Shown here: in pieces, positions 3,441-17,270 of the stretch | Position numbering within the stretch: the first letter of the stretch is position 1 | Layout of the letters: each line of letters starts with the position of its first letter | NCBI RefSeq assembly: GCF_002874965.1 | Contig: NZ_CP025624.1 | Location: 3,472,001 to 3,536,000 of the forward strand | Origin: Pseudomonas sp. NC02 | Lineage (GTDB): Bacteria; Pseudomonadota; Gammaproteobacteria; Pseudomonadales; Pseudomonadaceae | Direction of reading: 5' to 3' | Length of the DNA stretch: 64,000 nt | Translations under genes and position numbers: made by a program | The notes under the pieces: model-generated | Told to the model about the DNA's origin: nothing | Seen by the model: the letters and a program-made list of their open reading frames with translations, nothing else | Databases searched by the model: none

Positions 3441-4436
3441 CTAAGGATCCAACACCCCCCCGCTGTACCCCTCAGACAACCGCGTCCCGGTAAACTTGGC
3501 CACCACCGAACCCTGTGAAACCAGCCGCTCCCGATGCCCCGTCACCATCCGCCCGGTTTGCGCCGCATGCAGCACAACCTCAGAAGCCGGATCCCCAGGC
3601 CGCCGAATAATCCGCGCAAACCGCTCACCCTTTTCCACCTGTTCACCCAAACCTTTCTCAAACACCAACACCCCGGCACACGGCGCCAGGATGGTCTCCA
3701 TGCAGCCCATATCCACCACCTGCCCGTGCCATTGCGCAATCACCGGCGCCTCATCAATCACCCCACTGGCACAAAGCCAACCCCAGATCCCATCACCATC
3801 CTGCCCGGCCAGGGCATCACTCACATCCGCCTGCCCACGCAATTCAATCGTCGCCGCCAACCGCGGCTGCCCATGATCAATGATGGTCTCCTCAAACGAC
3901 CCATCACCACCCTCGTCCCAGACAATCACCACATCCACCTGCAACGCCGCCGCAAGCGCCCGGCCCGCGGGCCAAAAGCTGCGGTGGATGTAGAGATATG
4001 GCAGGGCTTCATCATCGGTGTGCAGGTCCAGCACCAGGTCAGCATCGGCGGCCAGTTGCACCAGGCTTTTCTGCCATTGCGCCAGGTTGCTGGCCGGCCG
4101 CTCCATGGCCAATGAATGATCAAACGCCCGGTTGAAATTCTGCCCGGTGGCTTCGTGAAACCGCCCCAACAACCGCCCCTGGCGAAACTGGCCAATGCCA
4201 AACGGGTTGGCCTGGGGCACCACCGTCACCGTGCCCTTGAGCCGGCCCTGATCCTGGCAGGCCTGCAAACGCGGCAGCAGTTGATGCAACACCAGCATCC
4301 CGGCGATTTCATCGGCATGCACACCGGCCTGCAGGTGCACCCGAGGGCCGTCGCCGTCACCCTCGAAGCGCCAGGCGCCAATGTGCAGGGTGTTCCCGGA
4401 ATCCCCGGGGACTTGCCACGAAAGGTCTTTTGCCAT
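3441..4436 (-). CDS. AstE/AspA-family (succinylglutamate desuccinylase/aspartoacylase-like) zinc deacylase
   Basis: A 331-residue zinc carboxypeptidase-fold deacylase. Zinc ligands expected for the family are visible: H40 and E43 in GVHADEI and H139 in LDLHTDDE. A GQNFNR motif near residue 98 matches the substrate-carboxylate site, and TIELRG holds the likely catalytic Glu. Members remove acyl groups from N-acyl amino acids; the substrate here is unknown. ATG 4436 (MAKDLSW) is preferred because GAGGAGGG lies just upstream, rather than the GTG/ATG options to 4493 that run into the operator. Divergent from the TetR gene, with the palindrome at 4474-4489 between them, so it is probably under that regulator. 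Downstream lies the long inverted repeat. Confidence 0.85.
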   Translation of the reverse strand: MAKDLSWQVPGDSGNTLHIGAWRFEGDGDGPRVHLQAGVHADEIAGMLVLHQLLPRLQACQDQGRLKGTVTVVPQANPFGIGQFRQGRLLGRFHEATGQNFNRAFDHSLAMERPASNLAQWQKSLVQLAADADLVLDLHTDDEALPYLYIHRSFWPAGRALAAALQVDVVIVWDEGGDGSFEETIIDHGQPRLAATIELRGQADVSDALAGQDGDGIWGWLCASGVIDEAPVIAQWHGQVVDMGCMETILAPCAGVLVFEKGLGEQVEKGERFARIIRRPGDPASEVVLHAAQTGRMVTGHRERLVSQGSVVAKFTGTRLSEGYSGGVLDP

Positions 4437-4473
4437 GCCGTTGCCCTCCTCTTGTTGGTTCTGCAGGTATATA

Positions 4474-4489
4474 TTGAACACACGTTCAA
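4474..4489. promoter_or_regulatory. Palindromic operator TTGAAC-N4-GTTCAA, putative TetR site
   Basis: A perfect 6-bp inverted repeat with a 4-base centre (ACAC) lies in the 74-base gap between the divergent deacylase and TetR genes, where a repressor would cover both promoters. A near copy sits at 10485-10500 upstream of the transporter operon. The assignment to the TetR protein is inferred from position and from the usual symmetry of TetR operators. Confidence 0.7.
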
Positions 4490-4510
4490 CCATGTATCTT
4501 CACCGAGGGT

Positions 4511-5119
4511 GTGCCTGTGGCCGAAGACCGTCGCGACCTGTTGATTGCCGCCACCCTCACCAGCCTCGCCCGTGACGGGCATGCCGGCATTTCCGTGCGG
4601 CGCATCGCCGCTGAAGCCGGGGTTTCGGTGGGGTTGCTCAATCACCATTTCGGCAGCATCGATGCACTGATCGCCGAGACCTACCACAAACTCGCCAGCG
4701 AACTGACCACCGCCCTGTGGCAGGAAGTCGACCAGGCCGTGGGCCCTGCCGCGCGGCTCGATGCATTCCTCGCCGGTTCGTTTTCCTCGCGGGTCATGGA
4801 CCCGAAACTGTTGGGCGTCTGGGTGGTGTTCTGGAGCCTGATCCGCCACTCGAACCACGTGAATGACTCCCATGAAAAAAGCTACCGCGCCTACCTCGAA
4901 CTGATCCGCCAGTTGCTCGACGACTTGGCCGAGAGCGAAGGCTTCGTGATCCACGACACGCGCCTGGCCGCCATCGGCTTATCGGCGATGCTCGACGGAC
5001 TCTGGCTCGAGTGGTGCCTCAACCCCGGCACCTTCAGCCCCGCCAACGGGCTGCACATCTGCCGTTGCTGGATACAGGGGCTGCGTCACGGAGCATTCGG
5101 CGCCGACCACATCCTGTGA
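4511..5119 (+). CDS. TetR/AcrR-family regulator, BetI-like
   Basis: A 202-residue regulator. The N-terminal helix-turn-helix is clear: DGHAGISVRRIAAEAGVSVG followed by LLNHHFGSIDALIAETY, as in BetI-type TetR proteins. The C-terminal part (GVWVVFWSLIRHS, AMLDGLWLEWCL) matches the BetI ligand domain. The start is GTG at 4511, or GTG at 4517 which is better spaced from AGGG at 4506; no ATG is available. It is divergent from the deacylase and convergent with the EamA transporter, whose 3' end it overlaps by 141 bases. It probably represses its own promoter and the nearby uptake operon through the palindromes at 4474 and 10485. The effector molecule is unknown. Confidence 0.88.
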   Translation: MPVAEDRRDLLIAATLTSLARDGHAGISVRRIAAEAGVSVGLLNHHFGSIDALIAETYHKLASELTTALWQEVDQAVGPAARLDAFLAGSFSSRVMDPKLLGVWVVFWSLIRHSNHVNDSHEKSYRAYLELIRQLLDDLAESEGFVIHDTRLAAIGLSAMLDGLWLEWCLNPGTFSPANGLHICRCWIQGLRHGAFGADHIL

Positions 5120-5977
5120 CACGGGGTGCCGGGCGCTGAGCATGGCCAGGGTGCCGCTGATGGCGATCAGCACGGCGCCGAAAATCAGCGACACGTCCAT
5201 CACCGTGCCCCAGACCAGGCTCGACAGCAGGAACGCCCAGATCAAACCAGTGTATTCAAACGGCGCCAGCAGCGTCGCCGTGGCCCGGCGGAAGCTCGCA
5301 AACAGCAGGAACTGGCCAATCCCGCCCACCAGCCCCGCGCCGAGCATGCCCAGCCATGCCGGGGTCGGCGATGGCGTGTGGGTCCAGGGCAGCGTCAGCG
5401 CCATGCAGATTACAAACACCACATTGGTGATCAGCATCTGCTCCAGCACCGAGGTGTTGTCGTCCACCTGGCGCAACTGGATATAGGTAAACGCCCAGCA
5501 CAGTGCTGCCGCCAATGTCAGGGCGATTGGCAACGGATCGAGCATGTTGCTGGGGCGACAAGCGATCACCACGCCGACAAAGCCGATGATCAGCGAAATC
5601 CACTGGCCGCGACTGGCGCGCTCCTTGAGGATCAATGCCGCGAGCAACGTGACCATGATCGGTGCGGAAAAATACAGCGTGGTCATTTCCGCCAGGGTCA
5701 GGTCTCTGGCGGCGGTGTAGTACAGCAGCCAGGCCAGCAGCGACAGCAGGCCGCGGATGATCAACAGCTTGCGGCTGACCGAGTGCCAGGCTCGCTTGAG
5801 CAAACCCATTCGCCCGGCGATCACGCACGCGGCGACCACCACCAGGCTGCGCCAGAACAGGATGGTGAACACTGAATAGTCGGCCACCAGCCATTTGATC
5901 CCGGCGTCCTGCAGCGCCAGGAACGCATAGGCCAGCGAGCACAGGGCAATCCCTTGCAACGAGCGATCGGTTTTCAT
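4979..5977 (-). CDS. DMT-superfamily (EamA) transporter
   Basis: A 332-residue membrane protein with about ten hydrophobic segments in two repeated halves, typical of EamA exporters. Signatures include LYFSAPIMVTLLAALILKER at the end of the first half and LAPFEYTGLIWAFLLSSLVW in the second. Family members export amino acids or metabolites; the substrate is unknown. Its ATG overlaps the TGA of the upstream permease (ATGA), so it is the last gene of the transporter operon. The last 45 or so residues after MLSARHP are hydrophilic and rich in G, E and P. They are encoded entirely antisense to the TetR 3' end and look like an extension by loss of an earlier stop. Confidence 0.87.
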   Translation of the reverse strand: MKTDRSLQGIALCSLAYAFLALQDAGIKWLVADYSVFTILFWRSLVVVAACVIAGRMGLLKRAWHSVSRKLLIIRGLLSLLAWLLYYTAARDLTLAEMTTLYFSAPIMVTLLAALILKERASRGQWISLIIGFVGVVIACRPSNMLDPLPIALTLAAALCWAFTYIQLRQVDDNTSVLEQMLITNVVFVICMALTLPWTHTPSPTPAWLGMLGAGLVGGIGQFLLFASFRRATATLLAPFEYTGLIWAFLLSSLVWGTVMDVSLIFGAVLIAISGTLAMLSARHPVSQDVVGAECSVTQPLYPATADVQPVGGAEGAGVEAPLEPESVEHRR

Positions 5978-6672
5978 CCGGCAGACCTGCGCAACGGTGT
6001 GCCGCGTCGCTCGGCAATGGCGTACAGGGCTTCAATCAAAAAGGTCAGGCACAGGTAGACCCCGGCCACCAGCAGCAGCGGCTGGTAGATCTGCAAGGTC
6101 TGGGCGCGTACCACGTTGGCGGCGCCAAGCAGGTCGACCACGGCAATGGTCGAGGCCAGCGCCGTGGACTTGAGCAGCATCACCGTCTCCCCCGCCAGGG
6201 TCGGCAGCAGCAGGCGCATGGCCCGTGGCAGGCGCACCCGCAACAGTGCCTGGCGTGGCGTCATGCCGAACGCCGAGGCGGCTTCCATTTCACCCTTGGG
6301 CACGGCCAGCAGCCCGCCGCGAATCACTTCACCGACGTACGCGCCCACCGACAACACCAGGGCGAACACGATGTACCAGTAACCGTCCCGCAGGAACGGC
6401 CAGAGGAAACTCCCGCGAATCATCGGGAACTGGGCAAACAGGCTGCCCAGGCCGTAATAGAAGATGTAGATCTGGATCAGCAACGGCGTGCCCCGCAGCA
6501 CACTGGTGTAGCCCAGTGCGCAACGGGCCAGCCACTTGCGCCGGGACAGCCGCGCCAGCGCTACCAGCACCGCCAGGGCGAAGCCGAGCACTGCCGAGAT
6601 CACCAGCAGCGACAGCGTCGTCTGCAAGCCCTTGGCGATCAGTCCTGCGTAATAACTTATCCACTCAGGCAT
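5974..6672 (-). CDS. Amino-acid ABC transporter permease (HisM/ArtM type)
   Basis: A 232-residue inner-membrane permease of the polar amino acid uptake family. It has an N-terminal TTLSLLVISAVLGFALAVLVA helix-rich segment. The EAA loop, EMEAASAFGMTPRQALLRVRLPRA, contacts the ATPase. ATG 6672 is chosen over an in-frame TTG at 6690: it lies 7 bases after the upstream permease stop and has GAGTGAG upstream. Its stop overlaps the start of the EamA gene. It should form a heterodimer with the 6680-7384 permease and use the ATPase domain of the 8412-10406 protein. Confidence 0.92.
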   Translation of the reverse strand: MPEWISYYAGLIAKGLQTTLSLLVISAVLGFALAVLVALARLSRRKWLARCALGYTSVLRGTPLLIQIYIFYYGLGSLFAQFPMIRGSFLWPFLRDGYWYIVFALVLSVGAYVGEVIRGGLLAVPKGEMEAASAFGMTPRQALLRVRLPRAMRLLLPTLAGETVMLLKSTALASTIAVVDLLGAANVVRAQTLQIYQPLLLVAGVYLCLTFLIEALYAIAERRGTPLRRSAG

Positions 6673-6679
6673 GTGCGGC

Positions 6680-7384
6680 TCACTCGACAACCGGCATCCA
6701 GCGACGAATACGTCGCTCCAGGCGCCCGGACAGGTAGTTGGAGGCCAGTGTCACCAGGTAATACAAGGCGGCGGCCGTGAGGTAGAACAACAGGTAATGC
6801 CGGGTCGAGCCCGCCGCCTGTTTGGCGGTGTACAGCAGTTCGTTGGTGCCCACTACGCTGATCAGCGCGCTGTCCTTGATCAGATTGATCCACAGGTTGG
6901 ACATCCCCGCCAGGGCGTATGGCGCCATGATCGGCAGGGTCACCCGACGGAACAGGCCAAAACCGCTCAAGCCAAACGCCCGCGCCGCTTCGATCTGGCC
7001 ATGGGGAATCGCGAGGATCGCCGCGCGGAAAATCTCCGAGGCGTACGCGCCTTGCACCAGCCCCAGTACCAGGACCGCTACCAGCGGGCCGCTGATGTTG
7101 AACTGCGCAAACCCCAGCCACAGCATCAATGCGTTGAGGCCCATCGAGCCTGCGTAATACAGCAGCAGGATCAGCAGCAACTCGGGCACCGCGCGAAACA
7201 CCGTGGTGTAGCCGCGCATCAGCATGGCTATCGGGCGCGGTGCACTGAGCTTGGCGCAGGCCACCACCAGGCCGATCAGCAGCCCCACCGCAAACGAGCC
7301 GGCGGAGATCTGCAGGGTCATCCATAACCCCTTGAGCAATGCGTTGCCCCAACCTTGTTCGCTGAAGCTGAGTAGATCGAACAT
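6680..7384 (-). CDS. Amino-acid ABC transporter permease (HisQ/ArtQ type)
   Basis: A 234-residue permease with the same architecture as its downstream partner. The EAA loop is QIEAARAFGLSGFGLFRRVTLPI and the first membrane segment lies in LQISAGSFAVGLLIGLVVACA. GGGAG sits 6 bases before ATG 7384. It is the first of the two permeases, separated from the binding-protein gene by 165 bases holding a REP pair, and from the next gene by a 7-base gap. Substrate is expected to be a polar or basic amino acid or a derivative, by family; nothing in the sequence narrows this. Confidence 0.92.
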   Translation of the reverse strand: MFDLLSFSEQGWGNALLKGLWMTLQISAGSFAVGLLIGLVVACAKLSAPRPIAMLMRGYTTVFRAVPELLLILLLYYAGSMGLNALMLWLGFAQFNISGPLVAVLVLGLVQGAYASEIFRAAILAIPHGQIEAARAFGLSGFGLFRRVTLPIMAPYALAGMSNLWINLIKDSALISVVGTNELLYTAKQAAGSTRHYLLFYLTAAALYYLVTLASNYLSGRLERRIRRWMPVVE

Positions 7385-7549: not shown

Positions 7550-8386
7550 TTAGTTTGTGTAGGGGCTATCGCAGACTTTGCTCACATAGGCAGGCGTGTC
7601 GGCGCGTTTGCACGGGCTGACCGATACCCCAAACACGCTCTGGGACAGGTCGGCGTAGTCCTTGCTCACCAGCAACTCACCGATGGCCTTGTCGAGCCGG
7701 GCCTTGAGTTCGGTGTCTTCCTTGCGCAGGCCAGCCCCCACGCCGCGGCCGATGATCGGGTCATAAGGCACTTCGGCGATTTCGGCCAGGCCCTGGGCCT
7801 CAGGCGTCTTGACCATCATGGCGATGGCGACGCCGTCGGCCATCATCAGGTCGGTGCGCCCGGCAATCAGGTCGGCGTTGGCCGATTCCTGGGTATCGTA
7901 GTACTTCAGGTCAGCAATGTTCTCGTAGTACTTCTTCAGGTAGTTGGCGCTGACCGTGGAGATCTGCACGCCGATGATCTTGCCCTTCAGCCCTGCCGGC
8001 GAGACTTCGACGGTGGTGCCCTTGGGGCCGGCAATGCCCAGCAGCGAATCGTAGTAGGCGCGGCTGAACGCGATCTGTTTTTCGCGCTCTTCGGTGACCG
8101 ACATCGAGGAGAAAATCACGTCGATTTTCTTCGCCAGCAGCGACGGAATAATCCCGTCCCAGGCCACTTCCTTGATCTGGCACTCAGCCTTCATCAAGCC
8201 GCAGAGCTTGTGAATCAGGTCCACCTCAAAGCCGGACCACTCCCCGTTGCCGCCCTTCACCGTGAACGGTGGGTAGGGTTCTGCCGCCACCGCGAACACA
8301 ATGGGTTTCTCCGCCGCCAACGCAGTACCTGCCGCCAGTATCAACACAGCACTGCTCAACCACTTTGCCAATCGTTTGGATTTCAT
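7550..8386 (-). CDS. Periplasmic amino-acid-binding protein (HisJ/ArtJ-like)
   Basis: A 278-residue type II periplasmic binding protein. MKSKRLAKWLSSAVLILAAG starts a Sec signal peptide with a probable cut after ALAA (about residue 22). The mature part opens with KPIVFAVAAEPYPPF and has EVDLIHKLCGLM and SSMSVTEEREKQIAFSRAYY, typical of polar amino-acid binders; the latter Arg is usual for the ligand alpha-carboxylate. The start is ATG 8386 behind GACGGGGC; the frame extends upstream to 8455 but would bury the signal peptide. It is encoded directly after the fused aminotransferase-ATPase and before the REP pair, so it should be the high-copy member of the system. Confidence 0.92.
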   Translation of the reverse strand: MKSKRLAKWLSSAVLILAAGTALAAEKPIVFAVAAEPYPPFTVKGGNGEWSGFEVDLIHKLCGLMKAECQIKEVAWDGIIPSLLAKKIDVIFSSMSVTEEREKQIAFSRAYYDSLLGIAGPKGTTVEVSPAGLKGKIIGVQISTVSANYLKKYYENIADLKYYDTQESANADLIAGRTDLMMADGVAIAMMVKTPEAQGLAEIAEVPYDPIIGRGVGAGLRKEDTELKARLDKAIGELLVSKDYADLSQSVFGVSVSPCKRADTPAYVSKVCDSPYTN

Positions 8387-8411: not shown

Positions 8412-10406
8412 TTAGCGAGTTTGATGCGCGTTGACGAACTGCCGGCAACGTTCACTGCGTGGGTCGATAAACACCGAGTCCGGCGAGCCGGTTTCCTCGA
8501 TCAGGCCTTGATGCAAAAACGCGACTTTGGATGACACATCCCGGGCGAACGCCATTTCATGGGTCACCAGGATCATGGTGCGGCCTTCTTCGGCCAGGGA
8601 GCGAATCACCCGCAGGACTTCGCCCACCAGCTCCGGGTCGAGGGCCGAGGTGGGTTCGTCGAACAGCATGACTTTGGGGCGCATGGCCAGGGCTCGGGCG
8701 ATGGCCACCCGCTGCTGCTGGCCGCCGGAGAGGAACGCCGGGTATTCATTGCGCTTGGCGGCCAGGCCAACCCGGTCGAGCAAGGCTTCGGCGCGCTCGA
8801 TGGCTTCGGCCCGGCTTTCGCGCAGCACCTGGGTCGGCGCTTCGATCAGGTTCTCCAGCACGGTGCGATGGGGCCACAAGTTGAAGTTCTGGAACACCAT
8901 GCCGAGTGTCGAGCGAATCCGCACCAGTTGCCTGGCGTCGGCCACCAGCGGTGCGCCGGGCCGGCCGTAGTTGAGCTTGATGCTTTCACCGTCGACGTGG
9001 ATGCTGCCCTGGTCCGGCACTTCGAGCATGTTGATGCAGCGCAGCAAGGTGCTTTTGCCCGAGCCGCTGGCGCCGATCAGCGAGATCACCTCGCCTTCGT
9101 GGGCGGTCAGGGAGATGCCCTTGAGCACCTCGATATTGCCAAAGCGTTTGTGCAGATCGAGCACCTCGATCATCTTCTTCGCCGCCACCGGCTGTACGCT
9201 GATGATTTTCGCCGCAGGCTCGATTCGCGGTTCTCCGACGAGCTTGGCGACGAAGCGGCTGATACGTTCACAGGCTTCGGCCAGTCGCGCTTCACCCAGG
9301 GTAAACGACAGCCGCACAAAACCCTGGGCCGGCTCGCCGAAGGCCGCGGCATCCAGCACGGAAACCCCTGCTTCGCGGAACAGCCGCCAGGCGAAATCCA
9401 GGGAGCCGAGGCCGGTGTCCCGCACATCCACCAACACGAACATGCCTGCCTGCGGGGCCCGCACGTGAATGCCCGGGCAACCGCCGAGGCCTGCTACCAC
9501 CAGGTCGCGGCGACGGCGGTAGGTTTCGCGCATGCCCTGGGTGACTTCATCGTGGGCCAGCACGGCGGCGGTCGCGGCCTCCATCACGAACCCCGGCAAG
9601 CCGTAGAGCATGCTCAATACCAGGGTTTCCGCGTGGGCCACCATCGCAGGCGCGGCGACGATCCAGCCGATGCGCCAGCCGGTCATGGCATGGGACTTGG
9701 ACAGGCTGCCGATCACGATGCAGCGATCGGCCATGCCCGGCAACGCGGCCAGGCTATGGTATTCGCCATCGAACACCAGGCTTTCGTAGACCTCGTCCAC
9801 CACGATCCACAGTTCATGCTCGATCGCCAGGTCGGCGATCACCTGCAATTCCTGAGGGTTGAGGACAACGCCGGTGGGATTGTTGGGGTTGGAGAAGAAG
9901 ATCGCCCGGGTGCGAGGCGTAATGGCGGCAGCCAGCAGTGCCGGGTCGAGGCGAAAGCCCGAGTCGGCGGAACACGGCACCCGCACCAGCGTTGCGCCGC
10001 TGGCCTTGAGGGTCGCTTCGTAGGTGACGTACATCGGGTCGAGCACGATCACTTCATCACCGGCCTGCAACAGGCACAGCGAGGTGACGAACAAGGCGTT
10101 CTGCGCACCGGCCACGGTGATGACGTTTTCAGCGTCGAGCGGGCGAGCCAGGGACTGGCTGTAGCGCGCGGCGATGGCATCGCGCAGTGCCGGGCGGCCG
10201 GGGATTTCGGTGTAGTGGGTGTCGCCCTGGCGCAGGGCCTCGACGGCGGCGTCGGTGATGAACGAGGGTGTGGCGAAATCCGGATCGCCCACACTCAGGA
10301 TGATGATGTCTTCGCCTTTGCTGCTGGCCTGGAAGGCGGCGTGGTGGATGTCCCAGGCGGCTACGCCCTGCCCTGCAATTCGCTCGACAAAAGGTGAAAA
10401 CCGCAT
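8412..10406 (-). CDS. Fusion protein: class I/II aminotransferase + amino-acid ABC transporter ATPase
   Basis: One uninterrupted 664-codon frame. Residues 1 to about 395 are a fold-type I PLP aminotransferase: VGDPDFATPSF, SNPNNPTG, VDEVYE, and the Schiff-base lysine K237 in SLSKSHAMTGWRIGW. Residues 412-664 are a HisP-like ATPase starting at an internal Met (MIEVLDLHKRFG), with Walker A GASGSGKST (445-453), LSGGQ (559-563) and Walker B FDEPTSALD (582-590). The linker 396-411 is short and no frameshift is needed. GAGAGG precedes ATG 10406. Internal initiation at M412 could also give a free 253-residue ATPase, the normal family length. It is the first gene of the uptake operon and lies behind the operator-like palindrome at 10485-10500. 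Confidence 0.88.
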   Translation of the reverse strand: MRFSPFVERIAGQGVAAWDIHHAAFQASSKGEDIIILSVGDPDFATPSFITDAAVEALRQGDTHYTEIPGRPALRDAIAARYSQSLARPLDAENVITVAGAQNALFVTSLCLLQAGDEVIVLDPMYVTYEATLKASGATLVRVPCSADSGFRLDPALLAAAITPRTRAIFFSNPNNPTGVVLNPQELQVIADLAIEHELWIVVDEVYESLVFDGEYHSLAALPGMADRCIVIGSLSKSHAMTGWRIGWIVAAPAMVAHAETLVLSMLYGLPGFVMEAATAAVLAHDEVTQGMRETYRRRRDLVVAGLGGCPGIHVRAPQAGMFVLVDVRDTGLGSLDFAWRLFREAGVSVLDAAAFGEPAQGFVRLSFTLGEARLAEACERISRFVAKLVGEPRIEPAAKIISVQPVAAKKMIEVLDLHKRFGNIEVLKGISLTAHEGEVISLIGASGSGKSTLLRCINMLEVPDQGSIHVDGESIKLNYGRPGAPLVADARQLVRIRSTLGMVFQNFNLWPHRTVLENLIEAPTQVLRESRAEAIERAEALLDRVGLAAKRNEYPAFLSGGQQQRVAIARALAMRPKVMLFDEPTSALDPELVGEVLRVIRSLAEEGRTMILVTHEMAFARDVSSKVAFLHQGLIEETGSPDSVFIDPRSERCRQFVNAHQTR

Positions 10407-13514: not shown

Positions 13515-16500
13515 ATGACAATTGCTCCTACTCAGGCTACGGCTTCTTTCATTCCTTTGAACGCACCTGACAAGCCGCTTCCCCCGGCGCGGCTCCTGGC
13601 CGCAGCGCCGGAAAATGCCGCGCCAGGCTCCCCCGGGACCAGGATCCCCAGCCCGCGTGCCGATGCCGACGGTGAACTGGCAGGCCAGGTAGCCAGCGCG
13701 CTGCGTCAGGTCAAGGGCGACGGCCATGACGACGCGATCATGGTCGAGAACATTCCGCCGAACTCAACGTTCGGGCAGTGGTGGTCGCAGTTGGGGCGTG
13801 CCATGGAGTCCCCGCAAGTCCGTGACTGGATGAGGGAAAACGGGATAAACCCCAATTCAGTGATGATTGACCCCAATACCGGGAAGATCACCTACCAGCG
13901 AAGGCCCTCCGCCGCCGCGCAACCCAACGGCCCCGATGACAAAGGCTGGGCGCAGGTGGGCGCACAGGTCAGGGACGCCGCACGCGTTATCGGCGACGGT
14001 AACCCGATCCCCTTCAAACCGCCGCTCTCCCAAAACAGCAACAGTGCCCCCCTGTGGTTGGTGAGCCAATTCTACAAAGAGCAAGAACATATCCTGCCGG
14101 ATCATGCCCACGAGCGTGCAGATGAGTTGGCGCGCGACAAAGCTTTTACCGGCGTGAGCGGCCCGCGTTTTGCGGACCTGCACGAAACCCGTGGTGAGGA
14201 TGAGGTTGAGCGCCAGAAAGCCCTGGTGGGCAATACCCAGACGCTGAACACCGTGGGGCGTGAACTCAATTACCTGCTTGAGCGGATTCGATCGGGCAGC
14301 ATTGGGAGCGGTGACGTTCTCGACTACCTGCAAAAGAATAAAGTCGAGCTTCACCCCGACAGCGCTTACCGCCAGGTCGGGAGCACCGACTCAGGGAGCA
14401 CCATTAGCCTCAAGGAATTCCTTGAGATCAATGGCTGGGACGTGCCAACCACGCCCGAGGAGGTGGAGAACCTGACGAATTATCTGCTCAGGCCTGAACT
14501 CCAGACGCCGCTCCATGGCAATTATGGCGGTGCGCTGGAATGGCAGCCCCCGCTTGCGCCCGAGGCGGCGAATCAGCTGCGGTCCGACCTGCGCCGCGGC
14601 AAGATCGGCGACGTTGATTTGAACGGCGCCAGGAACGTAGTGGAATACCTCATGCAGGGCAAGTCGTTCACGCCTTCCGAGCTGGCTGACCCGCAGCGGG
14701 TGCTCGACTCGCTGATCCGCTCCCCCAAGGGCAAGGCGTTGGGCGAGGCCCTCCAGGCAAAATTTGACGCGCAGTCCATCAAAGGCAGTGCCACTGATTG
14801 GCTGTTGGCAGCCATGAGTGTGGACAAAGACAACTCGTTCCGCGCGACAGACCCCAGGTCCAGGCATCACATCGCCGGTTTTGCCGTGACCGGGAACAGT
14901 ACCTGGGGCAAACCCGCCTCCGGTATCGTCAGCCGGTTGGCCGAACATCTTGTCAGCACCGGCAAGGCATCGTCACCCGAGGCAGCGGCGCTACAAGCGC
15001 ATCTGCTGCTCTCCACCCGCGCTCCGGAGTTCCTGGTTAAAGACATCCCGGACCAGGTCACCCCGGGTTCCCATAGTTGGGTCAGTTTTGTCACCGCGGT
15101 AGAACGCATCGAAGCGCAGTCTCCGGGTTCAACCGCAGGGATGTCCTATGGGCAGGTCATGCTCCACGCTGAGGTCGCGCCGGTCTCCGCCCAGGAGCGT
15201 TATGTCGAATATGCCGCCCAGCAAGAGGCGCTCAAGGATTGGGGAAGCGCGAACGGTATGCCGTATCCGGTGACCGAAGGCCAAATGAATGATGTACGCG
15301 ATGCATTCGATGCGCAGATCACCGAGCTGAGCGCGGCCAGTCAAACACAGAGCATGCCGATGCCATTACGCAAGGAAATGGCCCTGGAGCAGTTGCGCAA
15401 AGCCCTGCCAGGCATGGATACGGCAACCCTGGAAGACAAGAGCATCACGCTGGAACCCGCCCATAGCGATTTCCCGGGGCCTTATTCGATCCTCGACTTG
15501 TATATGAAGGACGCGCTTCACCATCGACCTGGCGTCGAAGAACCACCGGCCGTAGGGGTACTTGGAATTGGGCCCCCGCCCCCCGCTGACAATCAGTGGG
15601 TGACCTCATCCAGTACGTTGAACCTCAGCGAGGTGCTGGAAAAAACCAAAGACCTGCCAAGTATGCCGAACGTGTTCCAGGACGCGTTCGGGGAATACGC
15701 CGACGGCATCGAAAAAAGCGTCGCGGCCCAGGTCAAGTGGATGGTTTCGCGGCTCCCTGAAGAAGACCGTAAAAACCTGGAATACGGCGAAATCACAGTG
15801 GTCAGGGAAGTCGACGTCGATAAGGACAACTTTGGCAAGGAAACCCGCAAGCGGGTGCCCGAAGACAATTGCCTGCTGGTGAAAACCAGGCGCAAAAACC
15901 AGGTGCACACCTACGAAATCAATCTCAGGACCGCGAAGATTACCGAGCGTACGGACCTGGGTGACTTCACGGCAGGCAAACAGCCTTCCAACCACACCCA
16001 TTACCATAAAGACCTGGAAGAAGTCATACCTTCGGGCGAGTACGCACCCGGGTTGACGGATGAAAAAATCCAGGACGCCAACCCCAAGAGCTTTGGCAGT
16101 GCCCGAACGTCTTATATTGCCGATGCCATGGTGACGGATGTTGATATCCGGTCATTCAAAAAAGAGGCCGAGGGGGTCACCACGCTTGATACCGAGGTTC
16201 CCTTTTACAAGAAAGTCAATGAATTCCTCCTCAACCTGATCCCCTTGAGGTCGGCAATCGTCAACTTTCAAAACGGCAACATCGGCGAAGGTGTCGGCGA
16301 CCTGGCCCTGGATATATTTGGGTTTGCCGTGGGCCTCGGTGCGGCAGCCAGGGGGGCCAAGGCCGTGGCCGCCGGCGCATCGGCTTTCAGCAAGTTCGCC
16401 CAGGGCGCGAAGATTGTCGGGCGCGCGGCGCTGGGGAGTTTCAATCCGTTGAGCGGGGCTGATGATCTGGCCCGGAGTGCATTGAAGCTGGGGCGCACCA

Positions 16501-17270
16501 CGCTGACCGCTGGACGTAACGGCGTCAATCATCTGCGTGGCGCCTTGCGCAGTGTCGACCTGACGTCACTGGCGAAAAAGCCCGGCATTGCCGAAGGCAC
16601 TTACAAGGCGGCCAATGCGACCGAAGAAGCCAAGGTGTTTGCGAAGTTTGATGACGCCACCGGTAATTGGCACGCCTTGAATGTGAAAACCAGACAGCCC
16701 TTTGGCGAGCCGCTGGAAAATTTCAAAGCTGACGCCGTGCCCGTAGAAGCGCTTCGCGACAAACTGGAGAAGCTCCATGCCAAAACGGGATACACCGGGA
16801 CAATCTGCTACGAAAAAACCATGTTCGTCGGGATGGCAGACAATGCACTCCCGTTGAAAACTCGCGAGGCCGTGCTGGGCAGTGTGGTCAGGAGCGGGGA
16901 TTCCAATTACACGCAACGCTACAAGGATCTGATGGGTATTACCGCGGAGAATACCAGCGCCGTATTCAGGCCCGCGGACATTACCGAATCAGGCGTTATC
17001 AATTTCATGAGCAATAAAGCAGACGGCAATATCGTACACACCGCCTATATTCAAAAGAGCAGTGATGGAAAGCTCTATATCTACAACACCAACCAAGCCG
17101 GCCTGGACAAAGCCATGTTCGATGCCACTGGCACTCTTGATCAATCGGTCGGTGCAACGGTATTCAGTCTTGATAATGACGGGCTGCAAAAGTTTCTCGA
17201 CTCGGGGTTCACCTTCTCCTTCACCCCAAACAGCACCCTCAATGCCAACGTAACACGCCTGGCGACCTGA
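13515..17270 (+). CDS. Large toxin/effector-like protein with candidate C-terminal papain-like domain
   Basis: A 1251-residue protein not recognised over most of its length. It has no Sec signal peptide; the first 60 residues are rich in A, P and T. A hydrophobic Gly/Ala-rich stretch at about 905-965 (DLALDIFGFAVGLGAAARGA) is flanked by PFYKKVNEFLLNLIPLRSAI, a pattern seen in large Pseudomonas toxins with membrane-inserting regions. The last 200 residues contain C1098 (TGTICYEKT), H1175 (NIVHTAYI) and N1191 (YIYNTN); the 16-residue His-Asn spacing equals that of papain, and YopT-type effectors have a similar His-Asp spacing. It is a single gene with a terminator after it and no obvious secretion or immunity partner. 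Function is inferred only. Confidence 0.6.
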   Translation: MTIAPTQATASFIPLNAPDKPLPPARLLAAAPENAAPGSPGTRIPSPRADADGELAGQVASALRQVKGDGHDDAIMVENIPPNSTFGQWWSQLGRAMESPQVRDWMRENGINPNSVMIDPNTGKITYQRRPSAAAQPNGPDDKGWAQVGAQVRDAARVIGDGNPIPFKPPLSQNSNSAPLWLVSQFYKEQEHILPDHAHERADELARDKAFTGVSGPRFADLHETRGEDEVERQKALVGNTQTLNTVGRELNYLLERIRSGSIGSGDVLDYLQKNKVELHPDSAYRQVGSTDSGSTISLKEFLEINGWDVPTTPEEVENLTNYLLRPELQTPLHGNYGGALEWQPPLAPEAANQLRSDLRRGKIGDVDLNGARNVVEYLMQGKSFTPSELADPQRVLDSLIRSPKGKALGEALQAKFDAQSIKGSATDWLLAAMSVDKDNSFRATDPRSRHHIAGFAVTGNSTWGKPASGIVSRLAEHLVSTGKASSPEAAALQAHLLLSTRAPEFLVKDIPDQVTPGSHSWVSFVTAVERIEAQSPGSTAGMSYGQVMLHAEVAPVSAQERYVEYAAQQEALKDWGSANGMPYPVTEGQMNDVRDAFDAQITELSAASQTQSMPMPLRKEMALEQLRKALPGMDTATLEDKSITLEPAHSDFPGPYSILDLYMKDALHHRPGVEEPPAVGVLGIGPPPPADNQWVTSSSTLNLSEVLEKTKDLPSMPNVFQDAFGEYADGIEKSVAAQVKWMVSRLPEEDRKNLEYGEITVVREVDVDKDNFGKETRKRVPEDNCLLVKTRRKNQVHTYEINLRTAKITERTDLGDFTAGKQPSNHTHYHKDLEEVIPSGEYAPGLTDEKIQDANPKSFGSARTSYIADAMVTDVDIRSFKKEAEGVTTLDTEVPFYKKVNEFLLNLIPLRSAIVNFQNGNIGEGVGDLALDIFGFAVGLGAAARGAKAVAAGASAFSKFAQGAKIVGRAALGSFNPLSGADDLARSALKLGRTTLTAGRNGVNHLRGALRSVDLTSLAKKPGIAEGTYKAANATEEAKVFAKFDDATGNWHALNVKTRQPFGEPLENFKADAVPVEALRDKLEKLHAKTGYTGTICYEKTMFVGMADNALPLKTREAVLGSVVRSGDSNYTQRYKDLMGITAENTSAVFRPADITESGVINFMSNKADGNIVHTAYIQKSSDGKLYIYNTNQAGLDKAMFDATGTLDQSVGATVFSLDNDGLQKFLDSGFTFSFTPNSTLNANVTRLAT

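Follow-up and report, generated by a model that had tools for sequence, protein, structure and literature searches.

Results

An aminotransferase and an importer ATPase share one reading frame

In the 64,000-nucleotide stretch of Pseudomonas sp. NC02 analyzed here (the window; NZ_CP025624.1, positions 3,472,001 to 3,536,000), we found a gene in which a class-I aminotransferase half (AT), a short linker and a HisP-type ABC ATPase half (ATPase) follow one another in a single frame. The fusion is real and old. It probably gives one bifunctional protein that couples the import of a cationic amino acid to its transamination, the fusion having arisen once. That it is expressed as one chain is something we infer, as are its substrate, its oligomer and any trapping or channelling. 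The gene and its neighbours are as follows (window coordinates).

9243..10406, minus strand: PLP aminotransferase domain, fusion residues 1-388 (K237); PF00155, PDB sequence matches, invariant catalytic residues, dN/dS 0.08
9174..9242, minus strand: linker, fusion residues 389-411, no stop; low pLDDT, dN/dS 0.26
8415..9173, minus strand: HisP-type ABC ATPase domain, fusion residues 412-664, with the stop at 8412-8414; PF00005, Foldseek match to HisP 1b0u, dN/dS 0.03
7550..8386, minus strand: periplasmic substrate-binding protein, family 3 (PF00497); start at 8386 chosen by eye, 25 bp past the fusion stop
6680..7384, minus strand: importer permease 1 (PF00528)
5974..6690, minus strand: importer permease 2 (PF00528), overlapping permease 1
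4979..5977, minus strand: EamA/DMT-family transporter (PF00892), last gene of the operon
4511..5119, plus strand: TetR regulator with a BetI-type C-terminal domain (PF13977/PF00440), convergent with the operon
3441..4493, minus strand: AstE/AspA-type (succinylglutamate desuccinylase/aspartoacylase) hydrolase (PF24827, 93.8 bits), divergent from the TetR gene

The fusion gene (10406-8412, minus strand) encodes 664 amino acids with zero stops. Since the stop-to-stop frame around it comprises 669 amino acids, the ATG at 10406 is near the earliest possible start. The first-pass annotation, which named no strand, had described two complete domains, the second HisP-like, joined without a stop although such proteins are normally separate; the frame reads through the junction, and the domain searches, motifs and structure comparisons agree with that description. 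Pfam placed Aminotran_1_2 at residues 33-382 (229.4 bits) and ABC_tran at 428-587, with both domains complete. The AlphaFold model (mean pLDDT 74.9) showed two folded domains and a low-confidence join at 395-409 (pLDDT below 50). In Foldseek, the AT half matched aminotransferases with TM up to 0.87 by target among the matches listed, and the ATPase half matched HisP 1b0u with TM 0.92 by target and 60% identity. A profile of 32 fusions matched HisP (1b0u) over 412-661 and aminotransferases within about 9-391; none of the chains among the matches listed had a best stretch spanning both halves. The dN/dS values were obtained from 18 same-length gene rows, a few of which share one genome. On the opposite strand, a 612-amino-acid open frame runs antiparallel to the fusion (8559-10397), likely a by-product of G+C-rich coding sequence.

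The PDB sequences nearest to the AT half are class-I aminotransferases. In an alignment of 33 fused sequences, K237, Y65, N176, D204, Y207, R245 and R365 were invariant, so that PF00155 comes with the PLP lysine and its partner residues, as in class I/II aminotransferases. GASGSGKST (445-453), Q506, LSGGQQQR (559-566), LFDEP (581-585) and H616 were likewise invariant, and Walker A and B, Q-loop, LSGGQ and H-loop are intact in all 33, as in HisP-type ATPases of PAAT importers. The ATPase shares all these motifs with HisP of the histidine permease (PDB 1b0u) and with the PAAT ATPases ArtP and EhuA, as well as an operon with a family-3 binding protein and two permeases; 1b0u differs in being a free ATPase of 262 residues. 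More specific family assignments were rejected. The ATPase scored 350.6 bits against the HisP equivalog NF007908 (cut-off 466) and 314.8 bits against ectoine EhuA TIGR03005 (cut-off 345.4), and the AT domain scored 301.3 bits against the gamma-hydroxyarginine cyclodehydratase GntC, NF041364 (cut-off 415). The AT half fell below the cut-off of every NCBIfam aminotransferase model among those listed, and a literature search yielded no link to the D-lysine aminotransferase AmaC, a candidate that we dropped.

The fusion gene heads the operon of a probable cationic amino acid importer

The ATPase is encoded together with a family-3 binding protein and two BPD permeases, in the window and likewise in relatives. 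The nearest PDB sequences to the binding protein are octopine-, arginine- and Lys/Arg/Orn-binding proteins. The EamA gene holds the same position in A. rubi, in the split locus L090 and in the majority of those same-genus fused loci whose sequence reaches far enough; no EamA match was found in L098 or in the loci of the other two genera. The TetR gene is retained in most fused loci. A homologue of the AstE/AspA-type hydrolase is present in 44 of the 47 fused loci whose downstream sequence extends for 5.8 kb or more, and missing from three, A. rubi among them. This neighbour hints that the imported compound or its product is acylated. The convergent EamA and TetR genes share 141 bp at their 3' ends (4979-5119); the overlap is 132-135 bp in 22 loci whose aligned parts overlap, and the annotated genes of A. 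rubi share only 13 bp.

The fusion is conserved in three genera and on a plasmid

The unbroken full-length fusion was present in 36 of 199 same-genus genomes, including the window's own, to which they are 80-98% identical. Among 298 family genomes we found it in 43, in 39 by one match and in four as two matches within one 692-amino-acid frame (AT 63-67%, ATPase 81% identical). The two counts share three genomes. Searching other genomes for the two-domain architecture, a check put forward with the original prediction, thus returned 76 distinct genomes and an Agrobacterium rubi plasmid. These copies cover three genera plus A. rubi, the fusion of the two other genera being 70-74% identical. Full fusions made up 12 of the best 80 loci in the species collection, every one in a record named Pseudomonas. 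With the thresholds applied, no fusion turned up beyond the family in the order sample (293 genomes), and the class sample (369 genomes) yielded the window's own alone. Locus L166, whose match begins at residue 349, proved on reading to be a plain ATPase gene. Relatives with AT only, at 74-85% identity, occurred in 6 of the 199 genus genomes and 5 of the 298 family genomes.

In the plasmid collection, two of 1,678 matching records cover 80% of the fusion query. The A. rubi conjugative plasmid pW2_73_1 carries a true AT-ATPase fusion in the same order as the window (fusion, binding protein, two permeases, EamA, TetR; 53-76% identity), named in RefSeq only 'aminotransferase class I/II-fold pyridoxal phosphate-dependent enzyme'. 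The second record, from Shinella, holds separate neighbouring genes and is not a fusion.

These counts bear on whether two separate proteins merely look fused because of an assembly or sequencing error. Stops do occur at the junction site in two same-order genomes, as such an error would have it. Against this, the frame is open in the 36 genus and 43 family genomes, several of them single-contig assemblies, and linker lengths vary over 61 genes yet always remain in frame. Because independent genomes, 80-98% identical, keep the same open frame, sequencing error is excluded, and we give this explanation practically no chance. The situation named at the outset as fatal to the prediction, relatives uniformly split by a stop together with a sequencing error, is not what the genomes show.

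The linker is variable, and an internal start is not supported as a general feature

By one and the same measure, the linker of the 61 fused genes spans 23-48 residues. Such a variable, fast-evolving segment fits a loose tether and not a fixed channel. In six of the 61 genes (L083:4292-4379, L062 and L085-L088), a repeat which we take to be of the REP type is translated within the linker, as a full inverted pair in L062 and L083. Exact copies of the 23-base repeat unit number 451 in one genome and 633 in another, against 0 for the reversed control.

The original prediction also held that an internal Met at the usual ATPase start, Met412 (ATG at 9171-9173), could give a free ATPase. Among 61 distinct fused genes, the codon at this place is ATG in 44, GTG in seven, GTC in seven, with CGC, GTA and AAG found once each. 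In the gene with CGC, the codon just before is ATG. Leaving that gene out, nine of 61 lack both ATG and GTG. For eight of these, a GTG follows three codons into the ATPase; the ninth, L085, has no ATG, GTG or TTG in the 30 codons before the ATPase, and its only alternative is a TTG 31 codons upstream. All 15 rows of one genus-level lineage lack an ATG at this position, as does A. rubi. Calculated pairing with the 16S tail averaged -2.7 kcal/mol at the 44 ATPase-start ATGs, compared with -2.1 at 968 other internal ATGs and -5.75 at the AT start. The Met412 site of the window scored -5.1 kcal/mol, within the best 12% of the internal-ATG background.

Some internal initiation in the window gene is possible, since its site scores -5.1. 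It would allow the cell to make both the fusion and a free ATPase, and the importer would then be mixed, the enzyme being attached to some of its ATPases only. We regard this two-product arrangement as unlikely. It would suit the ATG in 44 of 61 fused genes and the window's own site; the missing ATG in a whole lineage and in A. rubi, a mean close to the background and well short of the AT start, and an invariant Pro-Ala at the matching place in seven DUF2817 fusions (see below) argue against it. The internal Met as a source of free ATPase found no support as a general feature and might apply at the window's own site.

Relatives of AT suggest a link to arginine transamination

Many unfused AT relatives are located near the same kind of importer. 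A thiamine-dependent decarboxylase homologue (at least 40% identity) lies 15 bp to 4.9 kb from AT in 26 of 46 unfused rows, a count that excludes a 31% match in L024 and in which some rows come from the same genome. The 46 rows include nine AT-only derivatives of the fused clade, none of which has the decarboxylase. All six homologues scanned, five from unfused loci and one from the fused locus L044, exceeded the cut-off of NF005712, 5-guanidino-2-oxopentanoate decarboxylase (640-791 bits versus 500). In fused loci with at least 2.2 kb upstream, a same-strand decarboxylase homologue precedes the fusion by 245 bp to 1.8 kb in 7 of 45; it was not in the fetched flanks of the other 38, nor is it beside the window gene. 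The window's genome has two decarboxylase homologues elsewhere.

The decarboxylase-linked ATs are 38-59% identical to the AT of the window. Judged by these relatives, AT probably belongs with arginine-transaminase (AruH-type) operons. P. aeruginosa AruH is the transaminase of the AruH-AruI arginine pathway. According to PMC7268258, which also names P. aeruginosa AruH, the S. meliloti enzyme AspC uses arginine, agmatine, ornithine and putrescine as amino donors to pyruvate, and the decarboxylase that acts with it has a preference for 5-amino-oxopentanoate. The present system resembles AruH-AruI and S. meliloti AspC-IlvB1 in the AT family and in having relatives at 54-59% identity that neighbour an importer of this kind and share their locus with an NF005712-type decarboxylase. 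It differs in that the transaminase and importer ATPase of the AruH-AruI pathway are separate genes, often with the ATPase first and AT last, and in that the decarboxylase is not adjacent in the window. We propose an arginine- or guanidino-like substrate because of the binding-protein likeness, the decarboxylase-linked relatives and the AstE/AspA-type neighbour.

A second enzyme-like domain is fused to the same ATPase end in alphaproteobacteria

Seven of the best 80 loci in the species collection contained HisP-type ATPase frames with 403-458 extra N-terminal residues, in records named Paracoccus, Mesorhizobium, Ensifer, Rhizobium and Agrobacterium. The extension is DUF2817 (324-330 bits in the four scanned with Pfam), and all seven matched a DUF2817 query. 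DUF2817-ATPase fusions were located in L128, L129, L130, L132, L134, L141, L144, L195 and L196. One such protein matched 19 plasmid records, 16 of them over at least 80%, and a phylum scan gave four frames of 716-717 amino acids, of which the two read were both DUF2817. Where RefSeq names the whole gene, it is a 'DUF2817 domain-containing protein'. An AlphaFold model of the DUF2817 fusion was of low quality, with a mean pLDDT of 52.7. Two of four DUF2817 proteins gave slight matches to AstE_AspA (25.2 and 27.9 bits, cut-off 25), with no single stretch significant, which suggests that DUF2817 may be a hydrolase. On one plasmid a 'histidinol-phosphate transaminase' gene directly precedes the DUF2817 fusion; another plasmid has none near.

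This second fusion resembles the first in the ATPase family, in the site where the added domain is attached and in its operon order (fusion, binding protein, permease, permease). It differs in domain family, ATPase clade and origin: in a quick ATPase tree, seven DUF2817-fused and 21 AT-fused rows fell on opposite sides of a 98% branch. Since the two kinds lie in separate ATPase clades, extra domains were joined to the same ATPase end at least twice. Five more HisP-type genes in stop-to-stop frames of 510-610, from the phylum scan, were not counted as fusions. In L189, L191 and L192 the long frame runs through the upstream permease gene in another frame, L193 is a normal 276-amino-acid ATPase gene, and the N-terminal extension in L190 had no likeness by eye.

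The fusion most simply arose once and later lost halves

In two of the 293 order-sample genomes, G599 and G738 from one other family, AT and ATPase are direct neighbours that keep order and frame, separated by two TAA codons or by one. These in-frame split genes likely represent the pre-fusion state. In the AT tree (101 rows), all 61 fused rows and eight AT-only rows formed one clade (99/95), with the split row of G599 (L065) as its sister (86/77); the row of G738 (L066) fell in another part of the tree, weakly supported (91/49). Long branches lead to L065 and to the A. rubi row, and the composition of L065 is odd. The pre-fusion reading is not firm owing to that branch length and composition, the 86/77 support and the position of L066. 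The tree needs five label changes, most simply read as a single fusion followed by about four losses, the count alone being equally silent on gain and loss. The simplest route to that single fusion would be loss of the stop that separated two neighbouring genes in one frame.

The AT-only genes stop shortly past the position of the fused linker, some with tails that look linker-like by eye, and no orthologous transporter genes were found in their fetched flanks. A 1251-amino-acid open frame in the window (13515-17270) is 34% identical over 637 columns to a 1681-amino-acid frame beside the AT-only locus L019. In G422 (L089:7734-9308), the AT half is shortened by deletions of 126, 21, 18 and 333 bp, all multiples of three, which take away the greater part of the NPNNPTG loop and a large share of the C-terminal region; the ATPase half is intact and its protein nearly identical to that of the nearest relative. 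A free ATPase gene would not need the upstream frame that G422 has kept, and translational coupling could also explain it. This kept frame, the codons and calculated pairing at the ATPase start, and linkers that never leave the frame speak indirectly for a fused product. Eight tree rows have retained AT alone, and in G422 an intact ATPase persists behind a broken AT, so tethering can be dispensed with.

The fusion might also be real yet have no function of its own, a stop having been lost harmlessly between co-transcribed neighbours, so that equal amounts of the two products are made and AT acts as if free in the cytoplasm. This is quite possible, if short of probable. It would account for the variable, fast-evolving linker that tolerates repeat elements, for the survival of either half without the other and for the same genes being clustered in many unfused relatives. 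It does not predict that, within the fetched flanks, none of the 69 fused-clade rows has both halves as separate genes in one locus, though one nonsense change in the linker would do where the ATG remains, nor that a second enzyme-like domain was independently fused at the same place. We favour the bifunctional protein.

Discussion

In the bifunctional protein that we propose, the C-terminal half would be the ATPase of a PAAT-type importer with a cationic, probably arginine- or guanidino-like, amino acid as cargo, and the N-terminal half an AruH-type transaminase taking the amino group off the incoming substrate. The families of both halves act as homodimers, and two copies of the fusion could form the importer's ATPase pair and hold an aminotransferase dimer under the permease. 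By converting the arriving substrate into a 2-oxo acid, the transaminase would trap it; the 2-oxo acid may then feed the thiamine-dependent decarboxylase that a minority of the fused loci and many of the unfused relatives encode nearby. Functional coupling as a shared pathway and co-expression is likely, and physical channelling is possible. The tether between enzyme and importer suggested by the first-pass annotation keeps its plausibility, now that the other importer genes and the pathway neighbours of relatives are identified; an effect of the tether beyond co-expression is hypothetical.

An ABC importer is commonly regarded as working apart from the enzymes that consume its cargo. Our literature search, which covered titles and abstract openings in a full-text library, found no aminotransferase-ATPase or DUF2817-ATPase fusion. 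GlnPQ-type importers also combine importer parts in one chain; as described in PMC8025302, they carry binding domains on the transmembrane domain and not a metabolic enzyme on the ATPase. More tentatively, we suggest that there may be enzyme-armed ABC importers, in which catabolic enzymes on the N terminus of the ATPase of cationic amino acid importers evolved at least twice (an aminotransferase in Pseudomonas and a hydrolase-like DUF2817 in alphaproteobacteria) and would convert the substrate at the inner mouth of the permease, coupling import with trapping. Fusions of this kind fall into an annotation blind spot, being named by one half only, as with the A. rubi aminotransferase and DUF2817.

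The present fusion places a metabolic enzyme within the motor subunit of an importer, an arrangement kept across three genera and a plasmid. It makes substrate channelling from an ABC importer testable, in one gene with natural splits, losses of single halves and a decayed enzyme half; the decayed AT half of G422 is a natural experiment on what the enzyme half contributes. With the importer motor and an amino-acid enzyme made in one piece in many Pseudomonas species, the fusion points to a physical tie of uptake to the initial step of processing.
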